In this document: piece after piece, positions 3,594 through 59,690 of the stretch
Layout: every line of letters begins with the position of its first letter
Numbering within the stretch: position 1 is the first letter of the stretch
Translations under genes and position numbers: made by a program
Virus record (IMG/VR): IMGVR_UViG_3300028393_000068
Location: 1 to 61,582 of that record
Source: a virus
Strand: one strand, 5' to 3'
DNA length: 61,582 bases
Notes under the pieces: generated by a model
What the model was told of the DNA's origin: nothing
The model's database searches: none
Seen by the model: the letters and a program-made list of their open reading frames with translations, nothing else

Positions 3594-4544
3594 ATGGCTG
3601 AATCGTACAAGTTCCCCGACGAAGTTGAGGACAAAAAAACTGCCGACGTTGAGTTTGAAATAGAAGGCGAAGGCGAAGTAGAGATTGAAATCGAAGACGA
3701 TACGCCCGAGCATGACAGGGGCCGTAAGCCCTTAGATCGTGAAGTGCTTGATCCAACCGAAGAAGAAATTGAGTCCTATTCCGACAAAGTCAAGGGACGC
3801 ATTAAAGAGTTGACCCATGCCCGTCACGACGAGCGCCGTGTCAAAGAAGCTACGATGCGTGAAAAGCAAGAGCTTGAGCGTCTTACACAACAGTTGATTG
3901 ACGAGAATAAACGTCTCAAACAAAACGTCTACACAGGACAAGAAGCCATCATTGAGGGAGCCAAAGGCAAGGCCGAATTTGAGTTGGATAAAGCCCGTGG
4001 CAAACTGAAAGCTGCACAGGAAGCTTTTGATAACGATGCCATCATTGCCGCTCATGAAGAGGTGATGGATGCAAAGATTCGCGCAGAACAAGTAAAAAAT
4101 TATCGTCCTACCCCTTTACAAGAAGAAAACTTTGAGGTACAAACTACTCAAACCCAACCCCAAAAGGTTGAACCGGACGAAAAAACTCTGCGCTGGCAGG
4201 CAAAAAACCAGTGGTTCGGACAGCAAGGGTTTGAAGAATACACCAGCTACGCACTAGGGCTGCATCAGAAACTAGTCACAAACGGAGTGGATCCCCGCTC
4301 TGCTGAATATTTCGACCAAATTGATGGTCGCATGAAGTCAACTTTTCCGGATTTATTCGGGCAAGCAAATGACAAGCCAAGGTCTGGTGAGGTTCAAAAA
4401 CGACCTACGACAGTGGTTGCCTCTGTATCTCGTTCTACGAGTGCAGGAAAAATTAAGCTAACTCAAACGCAAGTAGCGTTAGCGAAAAAATTTGGTTTAA
4501 CCCCGCAGCAATATGCTGTTCAAGTAGCAAAGTTGGAGAATTAA
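3594..4544 (+). CDS. Capsid scaffolding protein (probable)
   Basis: The 316-residue protein is very acidic at its N-terminus (EIEGEGEVEIEIEDD). A long charged coiled coil follows (about residues 60-150, with DERRVKEATMREKQELERL), and the C-terminus is basic (KIKLTQTQVALAKKFGLT). This acidic, helical, basic-tail layout is typical of scaffolds that direct capsid assembly and leave before or during packaging. It lies between portal and capsid genes, where scaffolds normally sit. A good Shine-Dalgarno (AAAGGAATAAT) precedes ATG 3594. No protease motif is seen, so maturation would be non-proteolytic or use another enzyme. Confidence 0.75.
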   Translation: MAESYKFPDEVEDKKTADVEFEIEGEGEVEIEIEDDTPEHDRGRKPLDREVLDPTEEEIESYSDKVKGRIKELTHARHDERRVKEATMREKQELERLTQQLIDENKRLKQNVYTGQEAIIEGAKGKAEFELDKARGKLKAAQEAFDNDAIIAAHEEVMDAKIRAEQVKNYRPTPLQEENFEVQTTQTQPQKVEPDEKTLRWQAKNQWFGQQGFEEYTSYALGLHQKLVTNGVDPRSAEYFDQIDGRMKSTFPDLFGQANDKPRSGEVQKRPTTVVASVSRSTSAGKIKLTQTQVALAKKFGLTPQQYAVQVAKLEN

Positions 4545-32837: not shown

Positions 32838-35800
32838 ATGCCCATTTACAGCGTGCAAGGCCCGGATGGGCGTATCTACGACATCGAGGGGCCTGAAGGC
32901 GCATCCGATGCACAGGTTATATCGGCGCTTGAAGAACACTTAGCATCCCAACCAAAGCCCAAAAAGGGATTGCTCGCCGCCCTTGGCAAAGGCGCAGAGT
33001 CCACATTAAGTCAACTTCGCACAGGTGTCTCTGGGGCTTTTGGTTCTCCCGAAGAAGCAGCTAGGGCCGGGCTGGAACGCGGCGAAGAAATCTCTGGCAA
33101 GTATGCTGACCAAGTCAGCATGGATAAAGTTAAAGAAGCCTTTAACAAAGACGGTGTTGCAGCCGCTGCGAAAGAAGTAGCACGCCAAGTTCCCTTGGCT
33201 ATTGCTGAGCAAGCGCCTAACTTAGCCACTTCCCTTGGCGGTGCTCGTCTTGGTGCTATGGCTGGTACGGCTCTTGGCCCTGCGGGTACTGTGGCTGGTG
33301 GCGTGGTTGGTGGTCTTGCGGGTGCTTTTCTTCCTTCCCTGATTCAACAATATGGCGGTAACATTGAACGCCAAGCTCAAGAACAAACGGCTCGTGGCGA
33401 GCCCATCAACATTAACGCGGGTGCTGCCGGAGCCGCAGCCGTCCCGCAAGCTGCCTTGGATGTAGCACAAGCGTTTATTCCGTTTGGTGGCAAGCTAATT
33501 AGCAAGCTAACAGGTATCCCCGAGAAAGCTTTCTTTGGCAAGAGCGCAGAACAAGTTGCTAAATTAGCCGATGAGAAACTGTTAGCCACCCTTGCAAAAG
33601 GAACGGCTACGGGCGTGTTGGCCGAAGTGCCAACAGAGATTGCCCAGCAGATGCTGGAGCGTGCACAGGCAGGGTTATCCCTAACTTCTCCTGATGCTAT
33701 GAAGGAATATGGCCAGACCGCCTATCAAGTTGGTTTGCTTGGCCCTCTGGGTGCCGTTGGTAGGCTATCAGAAAAGGGTGCAGCCCGAGACGAAGTTGCC
33801 GCTAGACAAGCCGCAGAACAAGAAGCCACTGCACAAACTGCACAAACTGCACAAATACCCGCACCGCAAGCCGTACAGCCCCAACTCCCAGCACCAGAGC
33901 CAATGTTGGCGTTGCCTGCACCTACGGGGCCAGCCCCCGAACAACCTGCGCAAGAAGTAGCGCCTACGGCCGTTACAGAAACAATACGCCCGGGTGCAGT
34001 GATCGGTACAACCGACACAACACGCCCTGTGTCTGCGCAAACGCCTAGCTTAAATCAAGCAATGGAAGAGCACGACAGACTCAAAGCACAACTGGCCAGT
34101 CTTCAAACGCAGATGCAAGCCGCGGCTACCGCAGGCGACACAGCCAAAGTCAACGAGTTGTATGCCCAGTACTCGCCTCTTGAAACGCAACTAGAAACTT
34201 CTGCTCAAACTGTAGAGGGCTTGGGCGGTGTTACGCAAACAGCCGCCGAGTTAGAAACCCAATCTAAAGCCGCGCTTTCTAGCATTGATGCCAAGATCAA
34301 GAACGCACAGAAGAAGCTTGCGGACGCAGCGCAGCTAGGCTCATTTGGTGAGCTACCCAAACTGTCAACAAAGCTTGATGAACTTAAAAAAGAACGTGCA
34401 GACTTAATGGACAGCTTTGGCCAGAAGCGCTCAGTCCTAGAAGAAAAAGGCATCAACCAAGCACAACGCGGCCAGAACCGTGAGCTATTCACGGCTGAAG
34501 AAGCGCCTCTGCCCCCAACAGAGAAGCCTGAAGGCCCAGAGCAACCAACCACTGTGCCCGGCATCGCGGCAACGCCTGCTGAAGCGTTGGAGTTTAAGCC
34601 CAAGGCGATTGATACCCAGTACGAACGTCCCGAAGGTTACGGCCTACAACGTGTGTCCGACGACAAGCCAATTCAGTTGGCTATGCAGAAAGACCCAAGG
34701 CAGTTAGACATCTTTAGCCCTGAAAACATTCAGCGTACAGAGATGACTCCCGCTGAGCGCGTAGCTGCTGACCAACGTATGGCAGAAGCCACAAACATGT
34801 CGGCTGGCCGTGTTTCCCAGTATGTCAGGGATGCTGAAAAGCAGCGTATGACCCGGGCACTAGATACGCGGTTGAACCTTGCCGGTACAGAAACCAAACG
34901 CGTTGTGTCGGACGAGCAGTACGACATCACAATGAACAACATCGACCGCCTGCATAACAAGGTGGTGCTCCCGATTGGCAATGCCAACAAGTCTTGGTTG
35001 CAAGAGTTGTACGATGCCGCAGACGTACACAATACGCTTCTTGAGCAGGCAGAAACAAATAAGAGTTTTGGCCTTCAGCGCAAAATTAAAGCGGCACTGA
35101 ACAGATACAACCGTGTGTTGGCCAAGATCACGCCTGTGCGTGAGCAGATTGAAGACATGTACAAGAGCATGTACGAAGCCACGCCAGCGGCTAAAGCCAG
35201 CGTTGTTGCGGAAGAAAAGAAAAAAGCAGGCGAAGAACAGCTTGATACACTGAAACGCCGCGCAGCGCCAACACCCGAGCAAGTAGCAAAAGGTGAAAAA
35301 GGTACGCCAACAGGTGCTGTTGTTAGCCGTGCTGTCAAAACAACCAGACGAATTGAGTCAGGCGATGTCCGCAAAGAAGCGGAAGACTCTCCGCAAATGC
35401 GCAAACTGGCCGACACTTTGGGTAGACAAGAACCTGAGTTTGAGAAGTTTAGCAACAACATATCCAAACGCGCAGCGGCGATGCGCGAGCAATATGGGAA
35501 AAATGATCCCGAAGTAACTGCGTTCCAGCTAAACATGAACGCCGAGTTGAATGCCAAAGCGTTTGAACTAGGCCGCAAGACACCTGAGTACAAGGCTACG
35601 CTCGCAGAGCAGACAGATATTGTCAGAGAAGCACTGTCTCAGAGTAAACAAGAAACGCTTTCCAAACGTACTGTTCAAGAGACTCGTAAGGTGCGCCGTG
35701 CACCAACGGAAGACCGCACAGGTTCTGCCGAAAGCCGTGTAGCTACAGAGAAGAAATCCCTGCGCGAAGCTGGCTCACGCCTGACTAAAGTGCAGGTTGA

Positions 35801-38800
35801 GGAGCTTGTCAAAGCGGCGTACGACTCGGATATTGGTACGGCATACCGCCTGCGCCAAACAGAGGGCGGCACAATAGATGCCAAAGAAGCCGCTGACTTC
35901 ATGGAAAAAGTGCAGAGTAAACTGCCTTCAAACGTAAAGCTGGTATATGCCGCTAATGCGGGGAAAGTTCCTGTAAAACTTCTCAACCGTATGTTTGAAG
36001 AAGGCATCGACCCAAACAATATCAATGTACAGGGCGGCGTGTTTCGAGATGGCACGGTCTTGGTAATTGGCGACCAGCATGCTGACTTGAAAGACTTGGA
36101 AGCTACCGTCTTCCACGAGATCGTGGGTCACTACGGTATCGACACCATCATTGGCATTGAGCGTCTACAAGCATACGCTAACAAGACAGACCTTCGCAAA
36201 CTTGCGGAAGAGCTTGGCGGTGAACCTCTTTTAAAAGAAGTTATTGAGACTGCAAACTTCCACGCAGCACGAGGCATGAGCGAAGAAATTCAAAAACTCC
36301 AAGTCTTGCGTGAGATCATTGCACACACCGAAGAGGCTCGCGTAACTGAGAGCTTCAGACAGAAGGCTGGCCGATGGCTCAAAGAATTTGTCGGCATGAT
36401 TCGCGCAGGCTTGCGTGATCTGGGCTTCACTTCTTCCTCTGTACTATCAACATCTGACGTCTTCTATGCACTGAAACAGTCCCGCAAAGCGTTTGAAAAC
36501 AAAACTATCGGTAAGTACAAAGACGTCAACGGCCAGATTGCTTTCCGTACCAAGCAGGAACCCACGCAGTACGGAGCTTCTTTTATTGCCAAAGAGAAGT
36601 CCCTGAAAGACCAGTTGCTTGGCAACATCATGGGGCTTACAGGCCGTGTTCAGTTCGTGGACAAAGACGCAGCCTTGTCTGAAGCTTTTAAACGTGGCGT
36701 AGCCGACAACGCCATTACATCTTTGGAAGCACAAAACGCAGAGTTTTATTTGCGATTTGGCCAACAGCGCAGCCAGTATGCGGGTCAGGCACTGACCAAC
36801 GGAAAACTAATCTTACGCAAGGGCGAAGGCGGCGGCTACGTGTACGACAGCGTCAAGGGCGCTAACATGGTTGAGGTGGCCGAAGCTTTGCACAAGGGCA
36901 AGTTTGCCAACGACTCAGAAGCCGAAGCTATCCTGACCGCATACGTGGCAGGCGAGCGTGCCAAGGTCAAGGGCTGGCAAAAGCTTAACTACGAGAACCC
37001 TGCTCTGGCGGAGAAGGAATACAACGATGTCATGCGTTTGCTCAACAGCGACAAGACAAAAAAAGACGCCGTGCTTGAAGCCGCCCGTATCTACAAAGAG
37101 TTTAACGACGGCCAGATCGACTTCCTTGTGCAGACAGGTGCTATTACTGAGAAACTGGCCAAGGAACTAAAGTCTGTACCTTACATCCCGTATTACCGCG
37201 TTAACAGCAACAGCGGCAACATTGAGTTGATGGTGGACAGAGAAACGCCTGTCCGTATTGGTAACGTCAAGACTGAGCCACAACTAAAAGAGTTGGTTGG
37301 CGGCAATAAAAACATTTTGCCAATCTTTACAAGCTCGGTTCAAAACACGTTCATGTTGACTGACTTGGCTCTGCGCAACCAGATGATTAAAGAGTCTGCG
37401 TTCTTGCTTCAGAAAATGGGCATTGCATCAGCGCTTGGAGAAGGTTCCGGCCCCGCAAGCGACAGCACTGTACGGTTTAAAGTCAACGGCAAAGACCATT
37501 TTGTCTTTATCGACAAGAACGTATACGGCATCCCTGCGGAACTCATCATCAAGGGCATGGAAGGCATCAAGACCACGATGCCTGCGGCTATCAAAATGAT
37601 GGGTATTCCTGCCGACATTCTGCGTAGTTTTGTCGTAAAGAACCCCGCCTACGCCTTGCGTCAGGTTGTACGCGATCCTTTGAACGCATGGTTGACAACG
37701 GGCACAGACGCTACGCCTGTACTCAGTTCTTTCAAGGAGTTAGCCAGTATGGTGGCCGGTCGCAGTGAAGTAGAGAACAAGCTGATGCGTTCAGGCGCTA
37801 TCAGTAGTAACGTATTCACTGGCGACCAGCGCGATGCGTCTAAGTTTCTCAAAGACATTACCGCAGGTAAATCGGGTTGGACTAAACTCATGGCCAAGCT
37901 GGATGCGTTTGCTATGCAAGGCGATGCGGCCACCCGTGCTGTCATATACAAAGACTCCCTAGCCAAAGGTATGTCCGAGCAAGCCGCGCTACTGCGTACA
38001 CTAGAGTCCATGAACTTTAGTCGCCGTGGTTTGTCTCCCAGCATGCAAGCTTTGTCAATCATCATCCCGTTCTTCAACGCTCAAATTCAAGGTTTGGATG
38101 TACTCTACCGCGCATACACAGGCCAAATGCCGTTCAGTGAACAGCTTAAGATCAAACAGAAGTTGGTGGCTCGTGGCTTGATGCTTGCCGCAGGAACGAT
38201 GGCTTACGCTGCCATGATGTCCGATGACGAGGCGTACAAACGCGCTAAGCCTGAAGAGCGCTACGGCAACTGGTTTGTGTACGTTCCCGGCTTTGACGAA
38301 CCCCTGCGGGTACCAATCCCGTTTGAGTTGGGCTACCTGTTTAAAGCGTTGCCCGAAGCTATCCTTGACATGGCATCCAATGACGAGAAGGCATCCAAGG
38401 CAGTGGGCGGTTGGCTCAAACTTGTAGCACAGACCAACCCGTTTAGTTTGCCACAAGCTATCAAACCTATTACCGAGGTGTACCTCGGTAAGTCGTTCTT
38501 TGGGGGAGACATTGAGTCACAACGCGAGCAGAAAATGTTGGCTGGTGAGCGCTCACGCGAGTCTACATCAGAGTTTGCCAAGCTACTTGGCAGCATCACA
38601 GGTAGCGAAACCATCAAGCAGATCACAGGCAAAGAAGGCTTGTCGCCCATCAGCATCGACTACCTCATCCGTGGCTACACAGGCGGTCTTGGTTTAGGTG
38701 TTGTGCAGTTAGCCAACCCGATACTAAACATGGAGATGAAAGAGGACGTTGCCAAGCCTACGCTTAAAGCCAGCAAGACACCGTTCATTGGCGGTTTGTT

Positions 38801-39137
38801 CCAGCCCGTTGAAGGCAGGGGCACCCTTGATGAAGCGTATGACGCAATGCTTAATATCCAGCAGACCAAGGGCACGTTTAACCGTTTGGTTGAGCAGGGC
38901 AAGACAGCCGAAGCCCGTGCGTTTGCACAGGAGCACGCTGACAAATTGGGAGCAGCATCGGTGTCTGGCTCGGTACAGCAGAAGCTTGGCGAGTTTGCCA
39001 AAGCTCGCCGCCAGATTGAGGCATCGCCCAAAATGACCACAGAGCAAAAAGACGAGTTGTTGGAACGTATCGACAAGGCGCAGACAGATTACGCCCGTGC
39101 CTTTCTCAAGGTAGTCGATAGAACCACACGCCAGTAA
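32838..39137 (+). CDS. Giant polyvalent ejection protein (2099 residues)
   Basis: N-terminus MPIYSVQGPDGRIYDIEGPE is the start module shared by many phage virion proteins. Next comes a Gly/Ala-rich membrane-like hairpin (GTALGPAGTVAGGVVGGLAG, about residues 145-175). Long coiled-coil regions follow (about 400-900). The segment with HEIVGHYG (H1093, E1094, H1098) is a possible metallopeptidase of HExxGH type. A C-terminal large polyvalent-protein-associated region comes last (about 1580-1800, with LRQVVRDPLNAWLTTGTD and MNFSRRGLSPSMQ), of LPD38 type from memory. Such proteins are packaged and injected with DNA to act early in the host. It is the last right-going gene. Confidence 0.8.
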   Translation: MPIYSVQGPDGRIYDIEGPEGASDAQVISALEEHLASQPKPKKGLLAALGKGAESTLSQLRTGVSGAFGSPEEAARAGLERGEEISGKYADQVSMDKVKEAFNKDGVAAAAKEVARQVPLAIAEQAPNLATSLGGARLGAMAGTALGPAGTVAGGVVGGLAGAFLPSLIQQYGGNIERQAQEQTARGEPININAGAAGAAAVPQAALDVAQAFIPFGGKLISKLTGIPEKAFFGKSAEQVAKLADEKLLATLAKGTATGVLAEVPTEIAQQMLERAQAGLSLTSPDAMKEYGQTAYQVGLLGPLGAVGRLSEKGAARDEVAARQAAEQEATAQTAQTAQIPAPQAVQPQLPAPEPMLALPAPTGPAPEQPAQEVAPTAVTETIRPGAVIGTTDTTRPVSAQTPSLNQAMEEHDRLKAQLASLQTQMQAAATAGDTAKVNELYAQYSPLETQLETSAQTVEGLGGVTQTAAELETQSKAALSSIDAKIKNAQKKLADAAQLGSFGELPKLSTKLDELKKERADLMDSFGQKRSVLEEKGINQAQRGQNRELFTAEEAPLPPTEKPEGPEQPTTVPGIAATPAEALEFKPKAIDTQYERPEGYGLQRVSDDKPIQLAMQKDPRQLDIFSPENIQRTEMTPAERVAADQRMAEATNMSAGRVSQYVRDAEKQRMTRALDTRLNLAGTETKRVVSDEQYDITMNNIDRLHNKVVLPIGNANKSWLQELYDAADVHNTLLEQAETNKSFGLQRKIKAALNRYNRVLAKITPVREQIEDMYKSMYEATPAAKASVVAEEKKKAGEEQLDTLKRRAAPTPEQVAKGEKGTPTGAVVSRAVKTTRRIESGDVRKEAEDSPQMRKLADTLGRQEPEFEKFSNNISKRAAAMREQYGKNDPEVTAFQLNMNAELNAKAFELGRKTPEYKATLAEQTDIVREALSQSKQETLSKRTVQETRKVRRAPTEDRTGSAESRVATEKKSLREAGSRLTKVQVEELVKAAYDSDIGTAYRLRQTEGGTIDAKEAADFMEKVQSKLPSNVKLVYAANAGKVPVKLLNRMFEEGIDPNNINVQGGVFRDGTVLVIGDQHADLKDLEATVFHEIVGHYGIDTIIGIERLQAYANKTDLRKLAEELGGEPLLKEVIETANFHAARGMSEEIQKLQVLREIIAHTEEARVTESFRQKAGRWLKEFVGMIRAGLRDLGFTSSSVLSTSDVFYALKQSRKAFENKTIGKYKDVNGQIAFRTKQEPTQYGASFIAKEKSLKDQLLGNIMGLTGRVQFVDKDAALSEAFKRGVADNAITSLEAQNAEFYLRFGQQRSQYAGQALTNGKLILRKGEGGGYVYDSVKGANMVEVAEALHKGKFANDSEAEAILTAYVAGERAKVKGWQKLNYENPALAEKEYNDVMRLLNSDKTKKDAVLEAARIYKEFNDGQIDFLVQTGAITEKLAKELKSVPYIPYYRVNSNSGNIELMVDRETPVRIGNVKTEPQLKELVGGNKNILPIFTSSVQNTFMLTDLALRNQMIKESAFLLQKMGIASALGEGSGPASDSTVRFKVNGKDHFVFIDKNVYGIPAELIIKGMEGIKTTMPAAIKMMGIPADILRSFVVKNPAYALRQVVRDPLNAWLTTGTDATPVLSSFKELASMVAGRSEVENKLMRSGAISSNVFTGDQRDASKFLKDITAGKSGWTKLMAKLDAFAMQGDAATRAVIYKDSLAKGMSEQAALLRTLESMNFSRRGLSPSMQALSIIIPFFNAQIQGLDVLYRAYTGQMPFSEQLKIKQKLVARGLMLAAGTMAYAAMMSDDEAYKRAKPEERYGNWFVYVPGFDEPLRVPIPFELGYLFKALPEAILDMASNDEKASKAVGGWLKLVAQTNPFSLPQAIKPITEVYLGKSFFGGDIESQREQKMLAGERSRESTSEFAKLLGSITGSETIKQITGKEGLSPISIDYLIRGYTGGLGLGVVQLANPILNMEMKEDVAKPTLKASKTPFIGGLFQPVEGRGTLDEAYDAMLNIQQTKGTFNRLVEQGKTAEARAFAQEHADKLGAASVSGSVQQKLGEFAKARRQIEASPKMTTEQKDELLERIDKAQTDYARAFLKVVDRTTRQ

Positions 39138-54198: not shown

Positions 54199-54213
54199 GG
54201 GTCACAGTGACCC
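54199..54213. repeat. Palindrome GGGTCACAGTGACCC, copy 1
   Basis: Perfect palindrome 2 bp after the stop of the peptidase gene 54216-55343, in the short gap before the next gene. On the minus strand it can fold with a CTG loop but only ACATTTAAAA follows. Confidence 0.8.
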
Positions 54214-54215
54214 GC

Positions 54216-55343
54216 TTATGCTTCACAATAAACCGCATCGAACAACGTACACAGTACAGTTGCCGAGTCGTAGGTGCGCGCTTGTGTTATCGCGTCTTGT
54301 AGTAATTCGTCAGTCAGTAGCCTGCGGTTGAGGAACCGCAAAGCTAGGTCAGGTTGTTCGGGGTAAACCGCCTCGCTGATCTGCTCAAGTAGGAAGTCGT
54401 AACTCCCCGCCATCGCGTCGTATAGGGCATCGAGTAAGTCCTCGGTCTGCCAGTAGTCATCGTCTTGCCATGTGCCGAAGTACTTGCTGTCGACTTGCTT
54501 GTTGTTGTCATACGCCTTGCTGTCGTACTTAGTCCACCACCCAGTGTTGTACTTGTACTCTTTGTACTCAGGCACAGTAGGGTCACGATCAGTAGGCAGG
54601 CTGTCCCACATCACCTTGAGTACTGCCTTGGACAGTGCCTCGAAGTGCACAATGTCTAGCTTCTCTTGGTCACCATGCTCGTTGTAGTAGCCCACGCTGA
54701 TGTTGGTACATTCGGGGATGATGTCTGTGAACTCAGCAGTGTCGGTGTACACGCCAGTGTCATCAGGAGAGTACATAAGCGTCTCATCAAAGGCGTTGAG
54801 GTCGTTGGCCAGTGCCTCACAGAACACATCGGATGCACAGCGACCCATACCCTGATGACTGATGACGCTGTCGATACCTCGCCTGTCAAACGCAATGGCC
54901 CGATCAAACTGAGCAAGCAAGTCAGCGTGATGCGTAGCGATGTGCTTAGCCCCGATACCCCCACACTCCTCGCCTTGGCTGAAGATGTAGTAACCCTTGA
55001 CGTCAGCATGTATCAGGTGCATGAGCATGGCCACACCCGCACCATCGTCAGCACCGAGGGGAGCGCCATCGGCATACCAGTGAGTCGCAGTCTTCCTGAT
55101 CTTGTTAGCACCTGTCTCTTTGTGTACTGTGTCAACGTGAGCGATGAACAATGTCTTACTGCCTGCGATGCGGTTGTCGATGTGTAGGTTGCCTGCACCA
55201 TCCACAGATGTGAATGACTTGAGTTCAGCAGGTAGTGCGTTGAACAGCCACTCGGTGAAGTCCGAGACGGCAGGGGTATTGTGCGGACGCTTGACAGACA
55301 ACGCACGCGCTAGGGTTTTGTGAAGTATAGATTTCTTGTTCAT
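54216..55343 (-). CDS. M20/M28-type zinc aminopeptidase-like protein
   Basis: The 375-residue protein has the full metal set of M20/M28/M42 co-catalytic peptidases: LFIAHVDTVH (His69, Asp71), LGADDGAGVA (Asp99/100), SQGEECGGIGA (Glu125 base, Glu126), AFDRRG (Asp153) and NEHGDQEK (His223). The last 130 residues (YKYNTGWWTKYDSKAYDN and on) lie outside the peptidase fold and are unknown. Such enzymes trim peptides or amides in the cytoplasm; no signal peptide is present. Peptidases of this class are unusual in phage early operons. It ends next to palindrome 54199-54213. Confidence 0.82.
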   Translation of the reverse strand: MNKKSILHKTLARALSVKRPHNTPAVSDFTEWLFNALPAELKSFTSVDGAGNLHIDNRIAGSKTLFIAHVDTVHKETGANKIRKTATHWYADGAPLGADDGAGVAMLMHLIHADVKGYYIFSQGEECGGIGAKHIATHHADLLAQFDRAIAFDRRGIDSVISHQGMGRCASDVFCEALANDLNAFDETLMYSPDDTGVYTDTAEFTDIIPECTNISVGYYNEHGDQEKLDIVHFEALSKAVLKVMWDSLPTDRDPTVPEYKEYKYNTGWWTKYDSKAYDNNKQVDSKYFGTWQDDDYWQTEDLLDALYDAMAGSYDFLLEQISEAVYPEQPDLALRFLNRRLLTDELLQDAITQARTYDSATVLCTLFDAVYCEA

Positions 55344-55357
55344 GATTGTTCCTTAGA

Positions 55358-57106
55358 TTAGGTTGCTTCGAGCACATGTGGTGACGATGCGTTGGAGAGA
55401 ATGATTAGGTCAGCGCTGATGTCTGCACGGCAGTTGATACGCACAGCGTCCCACCCTACTTGGTTGATGGTGGTCTGACTAATCAAGCGTCTAGTGATGA
55501 GGCGTCTGCCGTTGTGCAAGAGGGATATGCTGAACATCACATAGCCGTCATCTCTTGAGCGATCCTCGATCAACGAGCACTCATTCAGCATGGCCATGGT
55601 CAGTTGCCTAGCCACAACAACTTGCTCAACCGCGACAGTAGTATCCGCCTCGTCCTCGGCATCGTCATCCTTGTCAGCCGTAGCGTCAGCTATCTCCTGC
55701 GGTACGTAGTCATCGTGGTAACGCTCGCCCTTGTACTCGGTGAAGTCGGTGCAGTCGTCCGTGTACCAGTTGCATGATGCAACGCACTGCCATCCGTCAT
55801 CTTGCATACCCCACTCTTGGGTATCTTGGAACAAGCAGATACGCTCATCGTCTATCGTGTACCAGTCACCATTGATCTCGATGGCCTCATCCATCGGGGC
55901 GTACTCTCCGCACTCAAGCTCGATGATCTCGTTATCAGACAGGTAGTCCATATCGTAGGACTCACTCTGCGAGTCGACATACACCACGTTGTCCTCATGC
56001 ACATAGTATTGATTGCCTCGTCTGCCGTACACATAGGTGTAGTTATTGTCGCAACAACTATTGCACACATGCACGTCCTCTTGACGGCCAACCCAGTAGC
56101 CGTCATCGTTGGATGTACGATCACCGCAGTCATCGCAGTCGAAGTTGTCATCATCGTTATCCATCGCGGTCGGGTAACCGCCAGTCTGATCGCAGGTATA
56201 TTCTCCATCGCTGTCGATCACAAGCGCCTTAGCCCCTGCATCGATCGTCACATTCTTTTCACCGCCATCAAGATAGGGTGCAAGGAAGTGATCGCTTGCC
56301 TCGTGGTACGCCAACCTCTCGCCATCCTCCCAGTAGTTCTCCTTGGTATAGCCCTGCTCACGCAACCATGTATCCATGCCGTCATCTGTCTGACTGTAGC
56401 TGGTCGCATTGGCTGGGCGTAGGTAACTGCGAACGAAATACTTCTTGCCATCTATGGGCTGGGTCATACACAGCGCACGCCCCATGGTGTCATCGCCCTC
56501 GATGCGCACCGCCATGTGCCATCCGAACTTGGGGTCATACGCCTCGTAGGGGTGACGGGTCACGCCATCGCTACACTTAACGCCTCGGTCATCGCCCCAC
56601 ACCATGCACGACTGTGGCCCACGATGTAGGTGATAGATCATCTCAGCGGTAGTGTGTACGAACTGGAACCGAGCCGCTGACCCATAGCGTGAGACAAGAT
56701 CACGGATGGTGTGATCGGGTAAGTCGAAGTGTCGAGTGAGATACTTGCCGACCGATGTGACAGTCTGAATATCTTTCTGACCCTTGGCCTCGTTCTGTGT
56801 GTAGGCGATCTTGGAGCGATCACCTTGGGACTCATGCGGATGCTCAAGCAGTAGTTGATGCCAGTCTTTGGGACGGGCTAGCTTGATGGCCGCATTGATG
56901 ACGCCATGCACAGGGTACTTGTCGAACTCGCGGATGATCCAGTACCTAGCATCACGCTTGGCGCTGAGTGCCGCCATCTCCTCTCTGTCATCCGTGAGAT
57001 GCCATTGGCGTCTAAGCTCCCCATCAGTACGGCGTATCGCATCGTATGCTTGCCGTATGGTGTTGTCCATGTCTTGCCAGTCGTATGTATCGTTTGTTGT
57101 AGTCAT
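55358..57106 (-). CDS. Large Asp/Cys-rich protein of unknown function
   Basis: A 582-residue protein. The N-terminal half is helical/charged with HLTDDREEMAALSAKRDARY and LVSRYGSAARFQFVHTTAEM. The middle is Asp-rich with zinc-like knuckles (FDCDDCGDR, HVCNSCCDNN, C-x-x-C and C-x-x-CC). A run of short beta repeats with Y-x-x-x-x-x-V-Y-x-x-S/D follows, then CLFQDTQEWGMQDDGWQC and CNWYTDDCTDF. Acidic linker and a basic ordered C-terminus come last. Similar cysteine-plus-tyrosine texts occur in unannotated large-phage proteins. It may be an RNA/DNA or protein scaffold with structural zinc. RBS AAGGAGAAAGC precedes ATG 57106. Confidence 0.75.
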   Translation of the reverse strand: MTTTNDTYDWQDMDNTIRQAYDAIRRTDGELRRQWHLTDDREEMAALSAKRDARYWIIREFDKYPVHGVINAAIKLARPKDWHQLLLEHPHESQGDRSKIAYTQNEAKGQKDIQTVTSVGKYLTRHFDLPDHTIRDLVSRYGSAARFQFVHTTAEMIYHLHRGPQSCMVWGDDRGVKCSDGVTRHPYEAYDPKFGWHMAVRIEGDDTMGRALCMTQPIDGKKYFVRSYLRPANATSYSQTDDGMDTWLREQGYTKENYWEDGERLAYHEASDHFLAPYLDGGEKNVTIDAGAKALVIDSDGEYTCDQTGGYPTAMDNDDDNFDCDDCGDRTSNDDGYWVGRQEDVHVCNSCCDNNYTYVYGRRGNQYYVHEDNVVYVDSQSESYDMDYLSDNEIIELECGEYAPMDEAIEINGDWYTIDDERICLFQDTQEWGMQDDGWQCVASCNWYTDDCTDFTEYKGERYHDDYVPQEIADATADKDDDAEDEADTTVAVEQVVVARQLTMAMLNECSLIEDRSRDDGYVMFSISLLHNGRRLITRRLISQTTINQVGWDAVRINCRADISADLIILSNASSPHVLEAT

Positions 57107-57127
57107 TGCTTTCTCCTTTGGTTGTGG

Positions 57128-57325
57128 TTAATTGTTTGTCTTTGTTGCGTTAGACACGAAGTAGTCGAAGACCTGATACGCCAAGCCGTACGCCCCGCAG
57201 GTGTACATGGCCAGCCAGATGTATCCGACACCTACCTCCGTCATCATCGTGAACCCCATGTAAATCATCGCCATGCACATAGCGGTGAAGATGAGGGTTG
57301 CTGCTTTCTCTGTGATTGTTTTCAT
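57128..57325 (-). CDS. Small two-helix membrane protein
   Basis: A 65-residue protein with two hydrophobic helices (LIFTAMCMAMIYMGFTMM and YIWLAMYTCGAYGLAYQVF) and short polar ends. Start ATG 57325 follows AAGGAAATGAA. Early membrane proteins of this size may act in superinfection exclusion; unproven. Confidence 0.68.
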   Translation of the reverse strand: MKTITEKAATLIFTAMCMAMIYMGFTMMTEVGVGYIWLAMYTCGAYGLAYQVFDYFVSNATKTNN

Positions 57326-57347
57326 TTCATTTCCTTAAGTTGCAAGT

Positions 57348-57391
57348 GCCGAGGGAACCGCCTCGGCTTCGGTTTCGGGTCACAGTGACCC
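57348..57391 (-). terminator. Tandem hairpins after gene 57392-58231
   Basis: GCCGAGG/CCTCGGC (57348-57354 with 57361-57367) and the palindrome GGGTCACAGTGACCC (57377-57391) follow the stop codon directly on the minus strand. No T tract is present, so the pair may process or protect the transcript end more than terminate it. Confidence 0.5.
57377..57391. repeat. Palindrome GGGTCACAGTGACCC, copy 2
   Basis: Exact copy of 54199-54213, abutting the stop codon of gene 57392-58231. Confidence 0.8.
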
Positions 57392-58231
57392 TCATTCTGT
57401 TTCGGGATACATCCCATGCCATGTCGGTGGTACGAAGTCGTTGGGTTTCAACTCATCCATCCACCGCAGGGCTTGCTTAATCTTTCGCACTGTTTGTAAG
57501 TGCTTGTCTGTTGGGTCGATCTCTTGTGCCTGCTGTGCATTGACGAGTTCGTTTTCTGTACGTAGTTTTAATCTCTCGATCTTGGATGCCCGCGCCTTGC
57601 TCTCTTGAGGCGGTCTGCTCAGGCGTTGAAAAGGTAGCTTGCGTTTCATACGCGGCATCGTAGGGATAAGCTCAAACAATTCGCTTACCTCTTGCCTCTG
57701 AGTTCGTGGAACCCAGTCAGTCCAGTGCGACCCGTTGTTGGGTATGGCCTTGGGGTTTCTGCGTTGTACCCATGCCGAGAACTGTGATGGTGTCATGCGA
57801 TGGCCACGCTCGGGCTCAACGATCTCGCCGTCATCGTTCACATAGGTTGTCATGTAATTAGTTTTAATCTTGTGCTCAAGGCGTTGGAGTACCTCGATGT
57901 ATTTGTCGAACGCTTGGTCACGTTCGGGTGTTGGGTTGGTGCTTTTGTACTTGCGACCAACGATGGCGTTGGTTAACTCATACTTTAGATCACGCAACAG
58001 GTCACGCCATAAAGCATCGAACTGCTTGTTGCGTAGCTTGCTCGACTTCATTTCTGTTTTCTTTTTGAGCAAGTAATCCCTGCGCTCGGTTCGAATGTCG
58101 GGGTTCAAAATAGTTTTAATCAGGTAGTTCTGAAGTTGCTTGGGGGTCAGCTTGAGTTGTTGTGCCTCGCTCAAAGGGTTACGCATGAGCTTGAGGTCAA
58201 GATGTGTCGAGATTAAATCTATATTTTCCAT
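57392..58231 (-). CDS. 279-residue basic helical early protein
   Basis: Starts MENIDLISTHLDLKLMRNPL at ATG 58231 after TAGGACAGATC; the longer frame from 58273 is rejected because it lacks an RBS. Text such as LKLTPKQLQNYLIKTILNPD, DYLLKKKTEMKSSKLRNKQF and SQFSAWVQRRNP suggests a helical, basic, probably nucleic-acid-binding protein. No family recognised. It is the first gene downstream of the AT-rich gap 58232-58514, so it could be an origin-binding or early regulatory protein, by inference. Confidence 0.7.
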   Translation of the reverse strand: MENIDLISTHLDLKLMRNPLSEAQQLKLTPKQLQNYLIKTILNPDIRTERRDYLLKKKTEMKSSKLRNKQFDALWRDLLRDLKYELTNAIVGRKYKSTNPTPERDQAFDKYIEVLQRLEHKIKTNYMTTYVNDDGEIVEPERGHRMTPSQFSAWVQRRNPKAIPNNGSHWTDWVPRTQRQEVSELFELIPTMPRMKRKLPFQRLSRPPQESKARASKIERLKLRTENELVNAQQAQEIDPTDKHLQTVRKIKQALRWMDELKPNDFVPPTWHGMYPETE

Positions 58232-58514
58232 GATCTGTCCTAGATTAAACGAGTATCCATTGTGTCGGTACAACGGGAGGCAACGCCAGTGCTAGTATAC
58301 ACGAGAACTGTCCTCGGTATCTATCCTTTTCGAAAAGAACTAAAGCTAAAGCCTGAGAGCAGGGGATGTCGAGCTTGCAAAAATTTACACGCATATACAA
58401 ACACACTCCTATATATATAAATATATTTAAAAAGATAGATATAGAGGACAGTTTTTGCAGACGCAAGCAATGGCGCGGGGTTGCGCTGTACTCGGACTTT
58501 GGATAGCTGTTTAA
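58232..58514. other. Gene-free AT-rich segment, origin candidate
   Basis: A 283-bp gap with no credible gene. A 25-bp near-perfect inverted repeat (58306-58330 with 58429-58453, 22 of 25) and a nested TGCAAAAA pair (58376-58383 and 58452-58459) surround an AT-rich core (58410-58440, alternating TA). A left-going -10-like TATACT is at 58299-58294. It lies upstream of the basic protein gene 57392-58231. Small frames in it are poor and rejected. Confidence 0.5.
58306..58453. repeat. 25-bp inverted repeat around AT core
   Basis: Arm one is 58306-58330 and arm two 58429-58453. They match at 22 of 25 positions, with AACTGTCCTC identical for the first ten. The two arms are about 100 bp apart, so they form a long cruciform or a two-site target for a dimeric protein. 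Confidence 0.75.
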
Positions 58515-58709
58515 TCATGGATAGGTAGGTAAATTGTAGACTAAAGCTGTTTGGGCGACATTCGGGTCTTTGTGACCCGATTCCACGAGGTGCAAGGTCT
58601 TCTCTCTGCGCTGATCGAGGGCGATCTTGACCATGTATTGTGGGCGTTGCACCTCACGCCATCTTGCGAGGGCGATGTTCTTGGGGGAGAGTTCGGGGAA
58701 GAGTGGCAT
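58515..58709 (-). CDS. 64-residue early protein
   Basis: MPLFPELSPKNIALARWREV, RPQYMVKIALDQRREKTLHL and ESGHKDPNVAQ. The fourth copy of the GGGTC palindrome (58564-58578) falls inside the codons for SGHKDP, so the site is kept within coding DNA. RBS GGAGAA precedes the ATG, which overlaps the upstream stop by one base (TAATG). Function unknown. Confidence 0.68.
   Translation of the reverse strand: MPLFPELSPKNIALARWREVQRPQYMVKIALDQRREKTLHLVESGHKDPNVAQTALVYNLPTYP
58564..58578. repeat. Palindrome GGGTCTTTGTGACCC, copy 4 (imperfect)
   Basis: Same arms GGGTC/GACCC as the other copies with a different centre, located inside coding sequence of gene 58515-58709. Confidence 0.65.
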
Positions 58710-58834
58710 TATGTTCTCCGCTTTGATGTAATGGGGTTGATACCTGCTTTGATGACTGCGTAGAAGGTGACTTCACGCATGGGCTGGAAGCCCTTGGATT
58801 TTGCGTACGCGAGGTACTCTGTGTAGGTTGGCAT
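58709..58834 (-). CDS. 41-residue early protein
   Basis: MPTYTEYLAYAKSKGFQPMR then EVTFYAVIKAGINPITSKRRT. A compact basic protein starting at ATG 58834 after AAAAGGAG, ending in a TAATG overlap with the next gene. Upstream lies a TTAGACA half-site (58853-58859). Function unknown. Confidence 0.7.
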   Translation of the reverse strand: MPTYTEYLAYAKSKGFQPMREVTFYAVIKAGINPITSKRRT

Positions 58835-58871
58835 GATTAAAACTCCTTTTGGTTAGACAAGATACGAAACA

Positions 58872-58926
58872 CCGAGAGAAGCTCTTTCTCTCGGGCTCGC
58901 AGAAAAAATCGGGTCACAGTGACCCG
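58872..58926 (-). terminator. Rho-independent terminator plus second hairpin after gene 58931-59320
   Basis: On the minus strand the palindrome TCGGGTCAC-T-GTGACCCGA (58909-58927) is followed by TTTTTT (58908-58902), a classic terminator. A further perfect 9-bp stem CCGAGAGAA/TTCTCTCGG with a 5-nt loop lies at 58872-58894. Together they would end or strongly attenuate transcription after the first early gene. Confidence 0.75.
58911..58925. repeat. Palindrome GGGTCACAGTGACCC, copy 3
   Basis: Third exact copy, here forming the stem of the terminator behind gene 58931-59320 with flanking C/G making the arm longer. Confidence 0.85.
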
Positions 58927-58930
58927 AAAA

Positions 58931-59320
58931 TCATGCAACGAGAACCGCCAAGGCTTTGCGTTGCTGTGCAGGGGTGAGTTTGCCAAAGGCTTCGATGATT
59001 TTCGCAACAGGGTCAAGCGGTTCTTTCTTTGCGCTCGATGCTCTACGGGTTGTCCCCTCGATCATGTGCATCATGTCACGCACCACAGTCTTCGTGGTTT
59101 CATACTTGGGGTGCTTCGTGATGAGTGACACCTTACCCGTGACATCGTGCACCTTGTACCCCGCCTTACCCGCCTTCGTCTTACCGCATGCCCACTCAAT
59201 GACGATGGGTCTGCATGCTTCGACTGTGGTGTAACCCGCATCTTGCATGTCTTGGATGAGTTTCACACGGGAACCAGCGAATGTGTCAAGTGCTGTAAAT
59301 GCGTTTGCTTTGTTTGTCAT
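58931..59320 (-). CDS. First gene of the left-going early operon, unknown
   Basis: A 129-residue basic protein: MTNKANAFTALDTFAGSRVK, TVEACRPIVIEWACGKTKAG, SLITKHPKYETTKTVVRDMM, and a helical end DPVAKIIEAFGKLTPAQQRK. The first and promoter-nearest early genes of phages often encode host-takeover proteins. No domain recognised. RBS AAGGAGAAAC precedes ATG 59320; a terminator follows its stop, so it can be expressed separately from the rest. Confidence 0.75.
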   Translation of the reverse strand: MTNKANAFTALDTFAGSRVKLIQDMQDAGYTTVEACRPIVIEWACGKTKAGKAGYKVHDVTGKVSLITKHPKYETTKTVVRDMMHMIEGTTRRASSAKKEPLDPVAKIIEAFGKLTPAQQRKALAVLVA

Positions 59321-59356
59321 GTTGTTTCTCCTTGAGGTTGATTGAATTGCCTAGGG

Positions 59357-59372
59357 CTGACTACCTTAGACA
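59357..59372. promoter_or_regulatory. Operator-like palindrome, copy 3 (degenerate, 15-bp spacing)
   Basis: TGACTACCTTAGACA at 59358-59372 resembles TGTCTAA-NN-TTAGACA with one base shorter spacing. It lies 38-52 bp upstream of ATG 59320 on the minus strand, where the first early promoter or its operator is expected. Confidence 0.45.
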
Positions 59373-59433
59373 ACTTCTATTGTGCATACACCCCATTTTG
59401 ATAGGCATCGAGAGCCTTTTTCGGGGCATTTTC

Positions 59434-59448
59434 GGGTCACTTTGACCC
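59434..59448. repeat. Palindrome GGGTCACTTTGACCC, copy 5
   Basis: Arms GGGTCA/TGACCC with centre CTT, between the early and late operons. Confidence 0.7.
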
Positions 59449-59657: not shown

Positions 59658-59690
59658 AAAAAAAGCCCCACCAGCGTCAACCGGTGGGGC
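59658..59690 (-). terminator. Left-going terminator / terS leader hairpin
   Basis: GCCCCACC (59665-59672) pairs with GGTGGGGC (59683-59690). On the minus strand T7 follows, giving a strong intrinsic terminator facing left. On the plus strand the GGTGGGG arm is 4 bp before the terS ATG and would hide the only Shine-Dalgarno-like bases. Thus it may insulate the early operon from antisense transcription, repress terS translation, or both. Confidence 0.7.

Follow-up and report, generated by a model that had tools for sequence, protein, structure and literature searches.

Organisation of the early region

The 61.6-kb stretch of DNA analysed here (the window) spans an IMG/VR virus record from end to end. 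Terminase, portal and capsid-like proteins are encoded on its right-going side. Replication genes, among them those for a family A DNA polymerase, a helicase and an exonuclease, lie on its left-going side, which ends at a control region before p129. Approximately 30 proteins were scanned with PHROGs, and neither integrase or partition genes nor a lysogeny gene was seen among them. The 2099-aa protein, considered as an N4-type virion RNA polymerase, contains an LPD38 domain and gave no PDB sequence match; this comparison covered that protein only.

Five palindromes are confined to 5.3 kb of this region (Table 1), with none found elsewhere in the window. The initial annotation had listed all five, and each was recovered at its position. 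It had also placed the three exact copies at or directly after the stops of leftward genes, and offsets of 2, 0 and 5 nt were measured for the peptidase, p293 and p129 ORFs, respectively. All sites display dyad symmetry and are near-perfect palindromes. The control-region copy reads GGGTCACTTTGACCC, its arms being exact, and p129 is flanked by sites on both sides.

Table 1 Features of the early region (window coordinates).
Feature	Position	Strand	Sequence	Remarks
Candidate operator	54199..54213	.	GGGTCACAGTGACCC	peptidase stop 2 nt before, next ATG 20 nt on
Candidate operator	57377..57391	.	GGGTCACAGTGACCC	begins 0 nt past p293 stop
Candidate operator	58911..58925	.	GGGTCACAGTGACCC	5 nt past p129 stop; doubles as intrinsic terminator stem
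Candidate operator, one arm mismatch	58564..58578	.	GGGTCTTTGTGACCC	in p64 3' end
Candidate control-region operator	59434..59448	.	GGGTCActtTGACCC	between divergent p129 and terS
T6 tract of 58911 terminator	58903..58908	-		
Second hairpin after p129	58872..58894	-		followed by TGTTTCGT; stem sequence varies in relatives
Putative -10 element, leftward early promoter	59379..59384	-	CACAAT	conservation only
p129, putative operator-binding protein	58931..59320	-		first leftward early gene; key residues K77, T78, R93
p41	58709..58834	-		next small ORF
p64	58515..58709	-		3' part holds 58564 site
p293	57392..58273	-		early protein, function not assigned
p65	57128..57325	-		
p582	55358..57106	-		early protein, function not assigned
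Peptidase-like early protein	54216..55343	-		Pfam Peptidase_M28 just over cut-off, phrog_4191

Palindromes with exact 6-nt arms and a 3-nt centre occur in four copies with this arm in the window, and the other arms among the three commonest never occur twice. Across 200 dinucleotide shuffles the commonest arm of this kind was present in one copy (188 shuffles) or two (12), and never in more. A reversed control pattern gave 0 matches in 30 records, a biased sample in which most records had been picked as motif carriers. Together with the conservation described below, the shuffles rule out a chance repeat.

Conservation in relatives

A p129 scan of viral contigs, in which the motif was not used, identified 37 relatives, and in 37/37 a palindrome comes straight after the p129 stop. 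Wider samples gave a site at this place in 62 of 65 distinct p129 genes, leaving three without a 3' site. The central base after p129 is A or T in the relatives, and a variant centre was found in one genome of a later scan (L187). The control-region copy has a counterpart upstream of p129 in close relatives, and p64, p293, p65 and the peptidase gene are likewise followed by copies, several relatives carrying an extra site between p65 and p582. Long relatives have 3-6 exact-arm copies each, lying within a few kb where positions were listed. An ORF stop lies within -15 to 80 nt of 187 of the 240 sampled sites, although the right-arm TGA is the stop itself in about 50 of these and some of the ORFs may be chance; many sampled sites also lie some 20 nt ahead of the next start codon. 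Placement in relatives is thus not random, the same gene ends recurring.

The initial annotation assigned one variant to a coding sequence (58564) and the other to the control region (59434). Both locations hold, and the coding copy proves not to be incidental: p64 homologs retain the palindrome at the gene's 3' end but translate it in three different frames, so that their proteins finish with GHNDP-, RVTMTR- or GSQ-type sequences. The constraint on this site is therefore at the level of the DNA, and a protein-level constraint is ruled out. Computation shows that the sites are dispersed, lie at gene ends and are under DNA-level selection.

No close cultured relative was found by megablast, nor one for p293 by tblastn, and GTDB genomes gave no p129 match. 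For TerL, identity to phages of several hosts does not exceed 50%. TerL matches in two MAGs (66% and 52% identity) were considered for host assignment and are too weak to name a host. A search of viral contigs with the MinM2 TerL as query found no relatives.

Arm sequences differ between lineages and agree within a genome

The arms vary between lineages and agree within a genome, with GGGTCAC, GGGTCAG, GGGACAG, GTTGCAC, GTGACAC and GTGTCAC all represented. The sites are GGGTCAG in L208 and L227, as well as in L210 and L212, where some have variant centres, while L206 has two exact GGGTCAG sites plus near copies. GTTGCAC occurs six times in L275, GTGACAC five times in each of L278 and L280, and GTGTCAC seven times in L279. 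The GGGACAG-like sites of L211 are degenerate, GGGACAGCCTGTCCC occurring once in exact form beside three or four near copies; the short locus L293 has one GGTGCAG site, and L276 is mixed, with three GTTGCAC sites and two GGGACA palindromes. A constant frame runs through these half-sites, G1 N N N C5 A6 C/G7, and the central base of the palindrome is free. Arm switching is thus concerted within genomes. The identity of the arms in each genome, the free centre and the joint shift of the sites with p129 residues (see below) support the earlier reading of the palindromes as a protein target.

Covariation of p129 with the arms

Residue 93 of p129 is His in 6/6 genomes with an inner G and in 0/53 with an inner C (distinct sequences). 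In the inner-C genomes it is Arg in 42 and otherwise Ser, Gln, Lys or Val, so Arg is not required for inner-C sites. Column 93 is the only p129 column that is disjoint between the two groups. In the first set of genomes, five with an inner G had H93 and the rest had Arg. The discriminating columns were chosen post hoc except with regard to two genomes: L227, fetched after the pattern had been seen, has inner-G sites and H93, in agreement, and L293, which falls outside the 6/53 count, combines an inner G with Y93. The pair Lys77-Thr78 is present in GGGTCA genomes and absent from the other dialects (RQ, RN, RS/RT, KK or KG), a link with few lineages behind it. The p129 residues and the arms thus co-vary. 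As site forms to compare, GGGTCACnGTGACCC and GGGTCAGnCTGACCC would serve for the R93 protein of the window and the H93 protein of L208 and L227.

Neither TerL (433 columns) nor TerS (193 columns) has a disjoint column. Counts for p293 (1), p582 (10) and the peptidase (5) come from just 3-4 inner-G rows, too few to judge. Many of the fetched loci, a number of them short, do not contain these three proteins; of the early-side proteins, p129 alone was present in all 12 dialect genomes checked. For the non-C dialects, changes of operator type number 5 on the TerL tree versus 2-3 on p129 trees. Independent contrasts number two on well-supported branches and five on the best tree; all are in the expected direction and, with sampling that is phylogenetically clustered, too few for significance.

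The p129 protein

Searches of Pfam and PHROG gave no family match for p129, and hence neither a ParB-type CTPase or helix-turn-helix match nor a tyrosine-recombinase-like one; the 129-aa protein has no recognisable DNA-binding domain. Two AlphaFold models (mean pLDDT 85 and 84) were compared and gave no PDB or BFVD fold match. Both consist of helices 4-27 and 33-47, a small beta pair and a helix from 71/73 to 88, followed by a less certain tail. In the models K77 and T78 fall within the 71-88 helix and R93 just past it.

Terminator and RNA features

A T6 tract follows only the 58911 copy, those at 57377 and 54199 having no T tract on the coding strand. The initial annotation had likewise counted one copy as a true T6 terminator and the others as lacking T tracts. 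The T-run is conserved: of 62 distinct p129 genes with a 3' site, 54 have at least four T residues after it. Among sampled sites, a T-run of at least 4 accompanies 71/153 at gene ends versus 10/87 others. The order is the p129 3' site, the T-run, a second hairpin a few bases downstream whose stem varies between relatives, then TGTTTC...TTGTC. RNAalifold, applied to an alignment (A6), recovered only the first stem and did not predict the second hairpin, so covariation in the latter rests on reading of the sequences. At three base pairs of the first stem both sides have changed with pairing preserved. No known RNA family gave a match reaching its gathering score. The second stem varies while the first keeps its arms, a contrast that speaks for recognition of the first by its sequence. 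A terminator role covers the 58911 copy only and leaves the shared arms unexplained. Of the earlier proposal of a 3'-end processing signal that doubles as a terminator stem, the terminator part stands for the p129 3' sites; the processing part is unlikely, since such a signal would not need identical arms everywhere.

Promoter geometry

In many genomes, relatives with an upstream site among them, a consensus CACAAT/TACAAT box is located some 63-65 bp ahead of the p129 ATG, and no clear TTGACA-like -35 element was seen. In the window, the centre of the 59434 site is 57 bp upstream of the -10-like CACAAT. Upstream sites in general have their centres 36, 47-48, 57 or 68 bp above the box, roughly at helical-turn steps, and in other lineages the site lies in the leader, 46-62 bp downstream of it. 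These spacings are drawn from many close relatives and few independent cases, and the -10 box itself is putative.

p129 as a candidate regulator of its own operon

Taken together, the data suggest that p129 is very probably a DNA-binding regulator. The palindromes are likely to be its operators, through which p129 would repress its own expression and hinder polymerase between genes, a judgement that bears chiefly on binding, with a leaning towards repression. Given binding, the odds lean somewhat towards a repressive roadblock. Two p129 subunits would read the two half-sites (G1 N2 N3 N4 C5 A6 C/G7), with the outer bases opposite helix 71-88 (K77, T78) and the inner base opposite residue 93. 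Made early, p129 would occupy both the control region and the junctions between the genes of its operon, lowering its own expression and halting RNA polymerase between genes; at 58911, the terminator formed by the same sequence may assist stopping. It is an even bet whether p129 represents a new regulator family, with a fold not yet solved, whose palindromic operators at early-gene ends serve as a terminator stem and sometimes provide a stop codon; on this view specificity would have been altered several times in nature, all the sites of a genome changing together.

The main rival has p129 binding the same sites and acting positively, activating its own or the divergent late promoter or aiding polymerase past terminators. 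Class I activator sites lie at helical-turn steps from the promoter, as the upstream sites do from the -10-like box, and the lack of a clear -35 element would suit an activated promoter, as would a conserved terminator after p129 that a delayed-early switch could overcome. However, in several lineages the sole promoter-side site is downstream of the box, a poor place for an activator, and nothing promoter-like surrounds most sites; it is also unlikely that a first early gene would depend on its own product for its first expression. We consider positive action unlikely, although it has a clearly better chance than the readings that follow. One of these would have p129 use the sites for DNA handling (partition, start of replication or packaging). 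Clustered palindromes resemble centromere or iteron arrays, and those of the window adjoin the terminase genes, but the sites are kilobases apart and tied to gene ends, one of them coinciding with a terminator, which makes such a role very unlikely. It is equally hard to favour another host or phage protein as the binder, with p129 a linked passenger. Early genes are co-inherited, no known DNA-binding fold is seen in p129, and the other early proteins were compared in fewer inner-G genomes; against this, p129 alone of the early-side proteins is present in every dialect genome checked, and TerL and TerS have no discriminating column.

That the palindromes are merely transcript hairpins, whether terminators, 3'-end stabilisers or processing sites, would fit the conserved T6 terminator at 58911, the stem kept through two-sided changes and the many sites just past stop codons. 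A pure terminator or processing hairpin was rejected as a full account on the grounds that many sites have no T-run, that the arms are shared and that the second stem varies. Indeed, the stem of the downstream hairpin varies freely while the palindrome arms are constant across the sites of a genome, the central, would-be loop bases vary, and arm changes are common to all sites and track p129 residues; moreover, the control-region copy lies upstream of the putative promoter. An RNA element as the whole explanation is therefore highly improbable, a shade more so than the passenger or DNA-handling readings. Least probable of all, to the point of being negligible, is a mobile or recombinogenic hairpin with no regulatory role: the sites are short, identical and dispersed, with the central base in both orientations, but orthologous positions are kept across relatives, and a co-varying trans protein would not be expected.

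Relation to known systems

Dispersed operators within operons are known from a few temperate phages; here the candidate regulator has no match in the libraries searched. With at least six arm dialects and matching protein changes, these phages offer a natural experiment on the joint change of specificity of a regulator and its dispersed sites, and protein-DNA recognition is directly testable since sites and protein change together across relatives. The proposal that p129 binds the palindromes also provides a first early gene, unnamed in Pfam and PHROGs, with a testable function, in phages known mainly from metagenomes, the present one being uncultured. The open-access literature searched gave no earlier mention of the motif in phages, one search for it turning up only an unrelated human paper.

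KorB of plasmid RK2 acts through several dispersed palindromic operators of a small replicon, a likeness to the p129 sites. KorB is a ParB-family CTP-dependent clamp (PMC11790492), whereas p129 is a protein of 129 aa without family match. In Bacillus phage SPbeta, the 15-bp SPBRE motif occurs at several intergenic places and is served by one phage regulator, MrpR (PMC10516654), and the present motif is likewise 15 bp long and found at several intergenic places, with a single phage regulator proposed. MrpR has a tyrosine-recombinase fold and keeps the prophage silent, with sites in promoter regions (PMC10516654); p129 gave no such match. The ESAS of Cluster K mycobacteriophages are start-associated repeats, conserved in position and differing in sequence between subclusters (PMC3203893). 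They comprise an asymmetric 13-bp core with 17-bp imperfect inverted repeats, with no binding protein proposed (PMC3203893), and are found at gene starts, unlike the many sites here that follow stop codons.

The stoperators of Cluster A mycobacteriophages (L5, TipsytheTRex) are 13-14 bp, asymmetric and monomer-bound, number 20-30 per genome and are oriented with transcription (PMC6550527, PMC9283540). The sites described here are palindromes, number 3-7 per genome and lie within a few kb at the start of the early genes, and p129 is unrelated to the immunity repressor by family search. Although the asymmetry and genome-wide number of stoperators are not shared and we do not file the sites with them, the L5 stoperators are the closest working parallel. 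In both systems the sites lie in promoters (a putative one here) and short intergenic spaces, one of them upstream of the regulator gene (here the candidate p129), and the motif differs between phages along with divergence of that protein; for the immunity repressor a stop to elongation has been proposed (PMC6550527, PMC9283540), as it is here for p129.

Features around the control region

Immediately upstream of terS, a strong terminator-like hairpin with a T7 tract is directed leftward into the control region. A leader hairpin-like element, related forms of which are carried by relatives, lies between the putative -10-like box and the start of p129, the likely operator-binding regulator encoded by the first leftward early gene. 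Elsewhere in the window, a 2099-residue late protein ends in a C-terminal LPD38 domain, with no assignment obtained for its N-terminal two thirds. In the compared locus L276, two GGGACA palindromes accompany three GTTGCAC operators, and this locus may possibly be of mixed dialect, with more than one operator arm sequence.

Coordinates of the features
Feature	Source	Position	Strand
Late protein	Window	32838-39137	plus
TTGTC...GGCAA leader element	Window	59340-59380	minus
Terminator-like hairpin	Window	59665-59690	minus
GGGACA palindromes	L276	2795; 3952	
First leftward gene	MinM2 (L158)	3801-4364	minus

Comparison with Synechococcus phage MinM2

Profile comparison of p129 with the product of the first leftward gene of MinM2 (OQ594354) gave a common 33-residue C-terminal tail (probability 43%), outside of which the two did not align. 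The 65-kb MinM2 genome contains approximately 30 dispersed GGTTCAGnCTGAACC-like palindromes; of those among the early leftward genes, many are followed by a start codon approximately 22 nt downstream. Their half-site matches the G...CA[C/G] frame of the operators in the window and its relatives.
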